From NCBI GenBank assembly GCA_001023575.1, contig CP011489.1, positions 1,487,001-1,551,000 of the forward strand: a stretch of 64,000 nt of DNA. Reading direction: 5' to 3'. The notes under the pieces are model-generated. The model was given only the letters and a program-made list of their open reading frames with translations, ran no database searches and was not told the origin of the DNA. Both the position numbers and the translations under genes were made by a program. Source of the stretch: Actinobacteria bacterium IMCC26256. GTDB lineage: Bacteria; Actinomycetota; Acidimicrobiia; IMCC26256. Shown one piece after another: positions 20,835 to 23,317 of the stretch (the first letter of the stretch is position 1; each line of letters begins with the position of its first letter).

Positions 20835-20907
20835 TGGGCGCTGAGGGACTCGAACCCCCGACCACTGCGATGTAAGCGCAGCGCTCTACCAACTGAGCTA
20901 AGCGCCC
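20835..20907 (-). tRNA. tRNA-Val (anticodon UAC)
   Basis: 73 nt cloverleaf on the minus strand. Acceptor GGGCGCT pairs with AGCGCCC, discriminator A; D arm TAGCTCAGTTGGTAGAGC; anticodon stem CTGCG/CGCAG around CTTACAT, anticodon TAC; T arm with GGTTCGAGT. CCA is not encoded. Confidence 0.97.
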
Positions 20908-21162: not shown

Positions 21163-21534
21163 TTATGCGCTTCTTGCCTCTAGCAATACGTCCTGAGGGC
21201 GTATCTCCGAGGAGAGAAACTCGGGCGGCCGAATCTTTGGCGGCCTCCCTCGATTTCTTTTCTGCGCCAGGACCTTTCCATTTGCGAATAGTTCACCTCC
21301 CCAGACGCCAGTTGGTTCTCGACGAGTTAACGCCGATTCGAGACAGGACTCGCGCACTCGACAGTCCTGACAGAAAGAACGCGCGCGCGCAATGTCATCT
21401 AACTGCTCAGAGAAGAAGAGTTGCACCGTCTCACTCGATCCAGATGCGCACTTAGCATCAGACCTCCACGCCTCAGGGTCAAAGATGTGAGAACTCGCTA
21501 ACGACTCGAGCCCTCGAATAGTTACTGCCTGCAT
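21163..21534 (-). CDS. whiB7: WhiB7-type Fe-S transcription factor
   Basis: 123 residues from ATG 21534, preceded by AAGGAG at 6 bases; a start at 21600 lacks this. Four cluster cysteines, Cys29, Cys55, Cys58 and Cys64 (FCQDCRVRESC), then GVWGG (76-80), which contacts the sigma factor, and an AT-hook RGRPPK (95-100), the mark of WhiB7/WblC. Known role: binds SigA at AT-rich promoters and turns on intrinsic antibiotic resistance genes when translation is impaired. The 350-base leader contains an upstream ORF, antiterminator and terminator as in known whiB7 genes. rpoD for its SigA partner is at 36110. Confidence 0.9.
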   Translation of the reverse strand: MQAVTIRGLESLASSHIFDPEAWRSDAKCASGSSETVQLFFSEQLDDIARARSFCQDCRVRESCLESALTRREPTGVWGGELFANGKVLAQKRNRGRPPKIRPPEFLSSEIRPQDVLLEARSA

Positions 21535-21637
21535 GTTGTTCTCCTTATCTGTCTTTTGTTTTGGGTAGGTCTGGTTTTTTAATTTGCTCTCTACTGGCAT
21601 CGGGTGATGCAGAGATTGCGGTACGGAGGCAAACGCG

Positions 21638-21668
21638 AAAAAGCCGCCGGGGAGATCCCCGACGGCTT
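21638..21668 (-). terminator. Intrinsic terminator in the whiB7 leader
   Basis: On the minus strand AAGCCGTCGGGG, loop ATCT, CCCCGGCGGCTT (one mismatch) followed by TTTTT. It lies 104 bases before the whiB7 start and faces it, so in default conditions it should stop transcription before whiB7. On the plus strand no T-run follows. Confidence 0.88.
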
Positions 21669-21726
21669 AGGCGAAAGTTGCCTAGATGTTGGCTCCTACT
21701 TAGGAGCTCAACCGGTGCCGTCGGGG
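21657..21726 (-). promoter_or_regulatory. Antiterminator of the whiB7 attenuator
   Basis: Minus-strand CCCCGACGGC (21726-21717) can form ten perfect pairs with GCCGTCGGGG (21666-21657), the same bases that make the 5' arm of the terminator; the two folds exclude each other. Two small hairpins lie between (GCTCCTA/TAGGAGC and TAGGC/GCCTA). The upstream arm is inside the last codons of the upstream ORF, so a translating ribosome would mask it and favour termination. Confidence 0.75.
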
Positions 21727-21882
21727 TCGGGCAGGCTTCTGGTTAAAGCCATACGCCGGTGTGGCATATGCATTTGTCCAGGTGCCTGCCGAGACATGCA
21801 CTCGCGAAATAAGCTTCAGCGCGCAGGCGCGCGGTGCTACGGCTGATGCCGCTATACCGGTGTGCTGCATGCTGCTAATCAT
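21700..21882 (-). CDS. Upstream ORF of the whiB7 attenuator
   Basis: 60 residues from ATG 21882, with AAAGGA ten bases upstream; the frame also stays open back to a TTG at 21969. It starts MISSMQHTG and ends in an Arg/Pro-rich stretch (QKPARPRRHRLSS). Codons for the Arg-Pro-Arg-Arg segment overlap antiterminator arm 1. The product is probably regulatory by its translation and not by its sequence. Known whiB7 leaders carry upstream ORFs of this sort, though length varies. Confidence 0.6.
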   Translation of the reverse strand: MISSMQHTGIAASAVAPRACALKLISRVHVSAGTWTNAYATPAYGFNQKPARPRRHRLSS

Positions 21883-22079
21883 TCGAGTGCTTTCCTTTAC
21901 GGCTGGACCACTAGCGGTTGCTGTGTGCCCTTTGTTGCCCCCTAAGGAAAGCAGACTGAGGGCACCCAATGCAACCTATTTAAATTCTTTGATTATTAGT
22001 GCCTATATCTAGAGGAATAGAGGGGTTATCAGAGAGGGGCTTAGCCATTTCGTTTGCTTGTCACACCCCCCTGTTACTC

Positions 22080-22095
22080 TCGAACATATGTTCGA
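22080..22095. promoter_or_regulatory. LexA (SOS) box over the start of the HNH gene
   Basis: TCGAACATATGTTCGA is a perfect 16-bp palindrome and a perfect match to the actinobacterial LexA consensus TCGAAC-N4-GTTCGA. Its centre contains the ATG at 22088, so LexA bound here would block transcript start or passage at the start codon. Confidence 0.85.
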
Positions 22096-23317
22096 CAGAC
22101 TTAGAGATGCCCACACAGAACTCCGATCCGCGATGACCGCAATAGATCTAGAAGTAATTGATGCTGCCGGTGCGCGCGAGTTAGTTGCACTAGCCGATGA
22201 CGTGCGCCGTAGTGGAGACGCCCTGCGCACTATCGCGGTTGGGCGCGTTGATTATGTTGGCGCTTGGAAGGGTGAGGGCGCTAAGAATATCTCCGAGTGG
22301 CTAGCCGCTGAGACTAATTGTGCCCAATATGAGGCCCAGTCTGTGGTGGTCCTCGCCAACCAGCTCCAGCATCTACCCATTACCCAGGCTGCCTTGCTTT
22401 CCGGCGCACTCTCCAACACGCAGGCGGTAGAGGTCGCACGAGGAGCGATAGTTGCACCTAATACGGAGTCTCAGCTCTTGAATCTCGCGAAACATGTCAC
22501 AGTGCGCGATCTACGCGATGCAACCGCACGCGTAATAGCAGGGGCCACAGATGAGGCCGCACGCCACAAACGAATACATAACAGTCGTTTCTTAAAGTCG
22601 TGGAGAGACCCCGATGGTGCGTTCATCATCAAAGGGCGCATGACGGTTGCTAATGGTGCGCTAGTAATGGCAGCACTCAAGCCAATACAGGATGAGATCT
22701 TCAAGACAGCACGCACGAGTGGCAAACATGAAAAGCCTGAGGCTTACGCAGCCGATGCGCTACTGGCACTCTGTGAGGCGAAGACTGTGGGTGCTCAAGG
22801 TCTGAGCGCGGCAAAACCAACCCGCCCTAACGCTGTAATGAACATTCGCATCGATTACGCGGCTCTCAAGAATGGGCATACCAAAGAGGGCGAGATCTGC
22901 GAGATCGCAGGTGTCGGCCCTATACCTGTCGCTACCGCTACCGAGTATTTGGGCGAGGCATTCTTAAAACTTCTTGTTCTCGATGGAGTGGACATCAAGA
23001 CGGTTGCGCATTTGGGGCGACACATCCCTGCACCATTGCGCACCGCTGTCGAGGAGCGCGACCGTGTCTGCCAGGTACCGACGTGTGACGTAACGCTTGG
23101 TCTAGAGATAGACCACATCAAACCCTTCGCTGAGGGCGGCCCCGCCAGCCTGGAGAACCTTGTAAGGCTCTGCAAGCGACATCATCTCCAAAAAACACAC
23201 GACGGATACCGGCTCGTGAAGCTCGCGATGGGGTGCGGCACTGGGCCACCGTCAAAAAACTCGCCACCTAAATGGGAGTGGCGCGGCCCACCAGATAAGC
23301 AAAACACAGGGTCTTGA
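22088..23317 (+). CDS. DUF222/HNH endonuclease family protein
   Basis: About 409 residues from ATG 22088 (a TTG at 22058 would add ten). The N-terminal helical DUF222 domain (about 1-270) is followed by an HNH nuclease motif: CQVPTC, EIDHI, GG and LCKRHH. It may cut DNA, but 13E12-type proteins have no settled function. A perfect LexA box covers the start codon, so DNA damage is the likely inducer; no real SD precedes the ATG, so the mRNA may be leaderless. The gene is a paralogue of the fragment at the left window end. Its stop codon lies in a 16-bp tandem repeat. Confidence 0.93.
   Translation: MFDRLRDAHTELRSAMTAIDLEVIDAAGARELVALADDVRRSGDALRTIAVGRVDYVGAWKGEGAKNISEWLAAETNCAQYEAQSVVVLANQLQHLPITQAALLSGALSNTQAVEVARGAIVAPNTESQLLNLAKHVTVRDLRDATARVIAGATDEAARHKRIHNSRFLKSWRDPDGAFIIKGRMTVANGALVMAALKPIQDEIFKTARTSGKHEKPEAYAADALLALCEAKTVGAQGLSAAKPTRPNAVMNIRIDYAALKNGHTKEGEICEIAGVGPIPVATATEYLGEAFLKLLVLDGVDIKTVAHLGRHIPAPLRTAVEERDRVCQVPTCDVTLGLEIDHIKPFAEGGPASLENLVRLCKRHHLQKTHDGYRLVKLAMGCGTGPPSKNSPPKWEWRGPPDKQNTGS

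Follow-up and report, generated by a model that had tools for sequence, protein, structure and literature searches.

The window analyzed here, by which we mean the whole stretch of 64,000 nucleotides, belongs to a genome of 2.46 Mb in one contig and carries on its minus strand a gene whose product matches PF02467 (E 1.3e-15), identifying it as a WhiB7 homologue. Both the GVWGGELF motif and the AT-hook can be read directly in the protein, in agreement with the preliminary description, which had named the gene whiB7 from its RGRPPK hook; the gene starts with the ATG at 21534, and not at 21535 as given there. A whiB7 homologue with 75% identity is found in the same genus, and the nearest named WhiB7 relatives come from metagenome genomes, mostly labelled Acidimicrobiia bacterium or Actinomycetota bacterium, with isolate names that suggest lakes, soils and groundwater as their habitats; these relatives assign the genome to Acidimicrobiia. 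Downstream of whiB7 lies a tRNA gene (window 20835-20907, minus strand; Rfam, 73 bits), while a 419-aa ORF, DUF222/HNH-like by eye, is oriented divergently from whiB7 (window 22058-23317, plus strand), with about 120 nt between them.

Upstream of whiB7 there is indeed a leader, as had been claimed, but its length, previously put at about 350 bases, would be about 404 nt if transcription starts near 21938 as predicted. Read 5' to 3' on the minus strand, it presents promoter-like hexamers, AAAGGAAAG, an upstream ORF (uORF), arm 1, the stop hairpin, a small hairpin, arm 2, arm 3 and TTTTT, followed by whiB7 (Table 1). Approximately 90-100 nt separate the T-run from the Shine-Dalgarno site of whiB7.

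Table 1. Features of the whiB7 leader and gene, in window positions.
Feature	Position	Strand	Sequence or remarks
Putative autoregulated promoter	21945..21986	-	AT-rich box, -35 and -10; read from sequence and relatives
AT-rich box	21986-21977	-	AATTTAAATA; part of putative promoter
-35	21974-21969	-	TTGCAT; 18-nt spacer to -10
-10	21950-21945	-	TTTCCT; part of putative promoter
Shine-Dalgarno-like site of uORF	21890..21898	-	AAAGGAAAG; direct reading; 7 nt before ATG
uORF	21700..21882	-	60 codons + TAA; MISSMQHTGIAASAVAPRACALKLISRVHVSAGTWTNAYATPAYGFNQKPARPRRHRLSS; frame and length maintained in relatives
Hairpin within uORF	21727..21792	-	just upstream of arm 1; Trp codon on 5' side, Lys codon on 3' side
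Trp codon / Lys codon	21780-21778 / 21738-21736	-	opposite sides of uORF hairpin
Arm 1 of antiterminator	21717..21726	-	CCCCGACGGC; uORF codons 53-56 (Pro-Arg-Arg-His)
Stop-codon hairpin	21688..21712	-	GUUG-A-GCUCCUAAGUAGGAGCCAAC; contains uORF stop 21702-21700
Second small hairpin	21668..21684	-	TAGGC-AACTTTC-GCCTA; between the arms
Intrinsic terminator	21638..21668	-	AAGCCGTCGGGG-ATCT-CCCCGGCGGCTT; T-run TTTTT 21642-21638; about -24 kcal/mol
Arm 2	21657..21666	-	GCCGTCGGGG; partner of arm 1 (antiterminator) or arm 3 (terminator)
Arm 3	21652-21643	-	CCCCGGCGGC; terminator 3' arm; one G-U
Shine-Dalgarno site of whiB7	21541..21546	-	AAGGAG; direct reading
whiB7	21163..21534	-	123 aa; WhiB domain, GVWGGELF, AT-hook RGRPPK

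The putative promoter has its counterpart in the relatives, where a similar AT-rich stretch, TTGAC and TGnTTnCCT are found at the matching place. In addition, TTAAAT agrees at 4 of 6 positions with GAAAWY, the published WblC box, which is a partial match; its distance of 3 nt from the putative -35, on the upstream side, is that of the box. Some relatives look nearer to GAAAWY than the window does, as judged by eye. A generic promoter scan of the window called no promoter at the whiB7 leader, and a generic terminator scan overlooked the leader's terminator, probably because the scan extends the stem into the T-run. As these generic scans were blind to both elements, custom scans were applied.

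We then considered the pairing partners. Arm 2 is the perfect complement of arm 1 and doubles as the 5' arm of the intrinsic terminator with its TTTTT, all of which lie exactly where the preliminary description had placed them. The 60-codon uORF also holds at its coordinates, but it does not end within arm 1, as had been proposed: the arm corresponds to codons 53-56, and the stop lies about 15 nt further on, in a separate hairpin. With this correction, the layout reported earlier for the leader is confirmed. A comparable terminator arose in 1 of 3000 dinucleotide shuffles of the 404-nt leader, and a terminator together with an upstream complement in none of 3000, while the 111-nt switch region has a folding z of -5.2. 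The leader had no Rfam match above the gathering score; the best one, RcsR1 (16.8 bits against a gathering score of 60), was dismissed as a chance match.

Covariation was assessed in alignment A1, which comprises 38 leaders of the order and was built without reference to structure. The helix of arm 1 with arm 2 was paired in 87.7% of cells, roughly one third of the order lacking pairing at 2 of the 10 base pairs. The helix exceeded every one of the 500 shuffles and every slid version in both covariation score and percentage paired. At one antiterminator pair (34:100), A-U was observed 13 times, G-C 16 times and G-U twice. The terminator helix, tested in the same way, was likewise supported, being paired in 94.2% and showing compensatory changes in five pairs. 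Both in the window and in the majority of A1 uORFs, frame 0 applying in most, the variable arm 1 base occupies the third position of an Arg codon (CGA/CGG), so that the change is synonymous. On the best WhiB7 tree, in which few branches are well supported, a minimum of 8 changes was counted for the arm 2 base and of 6 for the arm 1 base; on well-supported branches there is only one independent pair, and independent events probably number more than one, the exact figure not being firm. RNAalifold predicted the terminator alone from A1, since terminator and antiterminator are mutually exclusive, and because the program is thereby blind to the antiterminator, the latter was tested as a named structure. 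Overall, both alternative stems covary in the relatives, which is the check that had been suggested for them; the lack of covariation that the preliminary description named as a refutation is not seen.

A wider sample, comprising 115 distinct leaders that precede whiB7 and its relatives, allowed the conserved parts to be outlined; apart from a few taken from other classes, these leaders represent the order or the class. A single strong hairpin, with a T-rich tail and a core similar to GGCCGYCGGG..CCCGGCGGCC, occurs in nearly all of the leaders, and in 101 of about 115 the uORF stop lies 19-34 nt before the terminator. Pairing of the upstream segment with arm 2 was far above that of shuffled segments (mean z -2.1), as compared to z -0.13 for a control segment further upstream; arm 1 and arm 2 of the same leader formed a duplex of -20.1 kcal/mol, against -17.5 when swapped between species and -15.6 with a far control segment. 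A hairpin containing or enclosing the uORF stop codon was present in 100 of the 101 leaders (mean z -2.1), its sequence differing strongly among them, and it was also found in most loci of other classes. In Streptomyces-like loci this hairpin reads GCCUGAUC..GAUCAGGC, with UGA in the stem, and in Mycobacterium-like loci it is present and less uniform; we infer these two labels from the WhiB7 sequence and the uORF type. Together, these observations suggest that, within the phylum, the layout of uORF, stop hairpin and terminator is an ancestral trait of whiB7.

When the switch was searched for with a covariance model, almost every whiB7-bearing genome of the order gave a single copy, sited at that gene. 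The few extra matches were weak, antisense to the true copy, or near WhiB-like genes, and the search for a second attenuator elsewhere in the genomes gave only weak matches. As the model was built partly from copies that it later matched, those matches are expected, and it is the lack of others that carries the point. Variants of the arrangement were also observed. Other Acidimicrobiia (loci L052, L054, L055, L059, L110 and similar ones) have a second subtype of the switch, with a uORF end that is RPMGxGG-like and mostly devoid of a Trp codon, and with an antiterminator formed by GCGGCC:GGCCGC and a second stretch, GGGCC:GGCCC. In loci L082 and L132 (genomes G059 and G176), two whiB7-like genes stand in tandem about 0.7 kb apart, and the leader with uORF and terminator precedes the first gene only, so both genes may share one attenuator.

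Based on these results, we consider it very probable that ribosomes control transcription attenuation in the whiB7 leader, as they do in the known whiB7/wblC systems of Actinomycetes. In the mechanism that we propose, a transcript begun at the predicted start site would have its 60-codon uORF translated, and a ribosome running freely would be within the last 12 codons or so, or at the stop, while the polymerase makes arm 2. Its footprint would cover arm 1 and open the stop-codon hairpin, leaving arm 2 to pair with arm 3, and transcription would end at the T-run. Ribosomes stalled or slowed by an antibiotic or by starvation in about codons 1-47 would instead leave arm 1 free to enclose the stop-codon hairpin by pairing with arm 2 before arm 3 exists; with the antiterminator formed, the polymerase would read through into whiB7, and WhiB7 would then probably activate its own promoter. 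An occlusion model, in which 13 nt downstream of the A-site codon are taken as covered, agrees with this scheme: with the ribosome at codons 1-47 the full helix of arm 1 with arm 2 stays (10.9 paired bases of arm 2), whereas at codons 50-61 only 1-5 paired bases of arm 2 are left. The outcome was alike in outline in four relatives, although in two loci (L031 and L035) a few of the late codons gave partial refolding. Thus, the attenuator logic of the preliminary description, with arm 2 common to two covarying stems, is upheld by the modelled ribosome positions.

Folding energies indicate that the order of events matters. Within the switch region, the antiterminator ensemble is favoured by about 4 kcal/mol (-55.2 against -51.4 kcal/mol for the terminator), and in a model without ribosome the antiterminator still forms ahead of arm 3. 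The equilibrium fold of the entire leader, in contrast, contains the terminator and not the antiterminator, with part of arm 1 taken up by an upstream hairpin, and so the scheme depends on the co-transcriptional order.

We then focused on the uORF. Its frame and length are kept in the relatives, while the peptide seems to be only loosely constrained (pN/pS of 0.72, close pairs pooled), and Pfam and NCBIfam searches with the peptide gave no match; some N-termini may be wrong, since starts were picked by a script requiring an ATG plus a Shine-Dalgarno. Still, certain positions recur in Acidimicrobiales uORFs. These are the Pro-Arg-Arg that arm 1 encodes, an Ala-Arg-x-(Arg) around codon 18, and a Trp codon; in 37 of 42 uORFs the latter precedes the stop by 15-30 codons, as compared to 13 expected on shuffling. 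Each of these 42 uORFs has one Trp codon (38) or two (4), none has a run of them, and Ser-Trp-Ser (UCG-UGG-UCG) is frequent. The Lys codon closest to the stop, just upstream of arm 1, is AAG in 31 of 31 uORFs examined. The Trp codon is surrounded by the nucleotide motif UCGUGGUCG, for which the Lys region is the pairing partner in many lineages; a strong stem between the two regions was counted, with anchoring, in roughly 20 of 30 relatives, that is, in many but not all lineages, and own pairs reached -14.6 kcal/mol against -11.7 for swapped ones. Alifold gave no consensus structure for this region, as its loop lengths vary. RNA structure may therefore account for part of the Trp conservation, and the hairpin within the uORF might act as a polymerase pause hairpin. 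Arg-x-Arg resembles the macrolide arrest motif. It is conceivable, if somewhat unlikely, that Acidimicrobiales uORFs hold a defined stall site, with Ser-Trp-Ser and Ala-Arg-x-Arg sensing Trp-tRNA or serving as a nascent-peptide/macrolide sensor, and that the hairpin with the Trp codon paces the polymerase; if so, the switch would join a specific sensor to a general detector of stalling.

A stricter version, in which the Trp codon or the richness in Ala makes the leader an amino-acid-specific attenuator that senses charged tRNA rather than antibiotics, appears improbable to us. The position of the Trp codon speaks for it, and known whiB7 systems also respond to amino acid starvation (PMC11550727, PMC12121999). 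Yet the Trp codon is single and not part of a run, the attenuator is present in several other lineages of the class in which the uORF end has no Trp, the codon lies inside an RNA stem in many species, a possible cause of its conservation, and the permissive zone spans nearly the whole uORF rather than one site.

To two further explanations we give very little credit. For other resistance genes, leaders are known to attenuate at the translational level, a precedent for a structure hiding the whiB7 ribosome binding site; that site, however, is about 90 nt past the T-run and largely unpaired in the full-leader fold, and the covarying stems form a terminator with a T-run. Alternatively, an upstream small gene or small RNA might simply end at a constitutive terminator, with the complementarity of arm 1 due to chance or to a shared coding constraint. 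Intrinsic terminators after small ORFs are common, and Pro-Arg-Arg is naturally encoded by CCC-CGN-CGG, but this hardly fits with coupled changes at a third codon position, with own arms pairing better than swapped ones, with the shuffles, which never yielded terminator plus complement, or with the linkage to whiB7 in nearly every genome carrying the switch.

The ribosome-controlled attenuator that we favour is, as a mechanism, already known for whiB7/wblC; what is added here is its occurrence in Acidimicrobiia, which extends it to mostly uncultured water and soil bacteria. The literature searched (its coverage lacking Lee 2022, Poulton 2024, and Burian and Thompson 2018) contained no description of an Acidimicrobiia whiB7 attenuator, and whiB7 is mentioned in marine Acidimicrobiales without its leader (PMC10205998). 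In addition, about 100 aligned leaders separate constrained parts (the arms, the stop hairpin and the distance from stop to terminator) from loose ones (most of the peptide). Such a map bears on the stalling of ribosomes by antibiotics in the whiB7 uORF, whose occurrence and site have not yet been tested even in model species (PMC12121999, eLife 2025).

In the published whiB7/wblC model, completion of the uORF leads to termination and stalled ribosomes to read-through (PMC11550727). Four of its components are found at this locus: a WhiB7 gene, a uORF with a ribosome binding site, a Rho-independent terminator in between, and an antiterminator that excludes the terminator and has one of its arms within the uORF. 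A uORF-mediated attenuator of Mycobacterium whiB7 was reportedly described by Burian and Thompson in 2018 and by Lee in 2022. As regards anatomy, the likeness to Mycobacterium and Streptomyces noted in the preliminary description is borne out, since Mycobacterium-like and Streptomyces-like loci share the geometry of uORF stop, hairpin and terminator. The Mycobacterium attenuator likewise has a Shine-Dalgarno and uORF about 350 nt upstream of whiB7, an intrinsic terminator after the uORF, and read-through if the uORF is left uncompleted (Dinan 2014, PMC4128351); in Mycobacterium-like loci, GGCCACGGACCC..GGATCCGTGGCC lies 14-24 nt past the uORF. The Acidimicrobiia arms differ (GGCCGYCGGG), as does the uORF peptide, which lacks Ala-His repeats, and Acidimicrobiales uORFs have the conserved Trp codon. 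In the Streptomyces wblC attenuator, too, about 23 nt separate the uORF stop from the terminator, a hairpin forms at the stop codon and arm 1 lies in the last uORF codons, but Streptomyces-like uORFs have about 105 codons and end in MWAFRGPEPWSDPA, with GGGCCGCGGAACCC..GGGATCCGCGGCCC as the terminator. Finally, as in the trp/his leader-peptide attenuators, the position of a ribosome on a leader ORF would select between antiterminator and terminator; unlike these, the whiB7 uORF contains no run of cognate codons, about 80% of it would be a permissive stall zone, and the target is a regulator of the antibiotic response.
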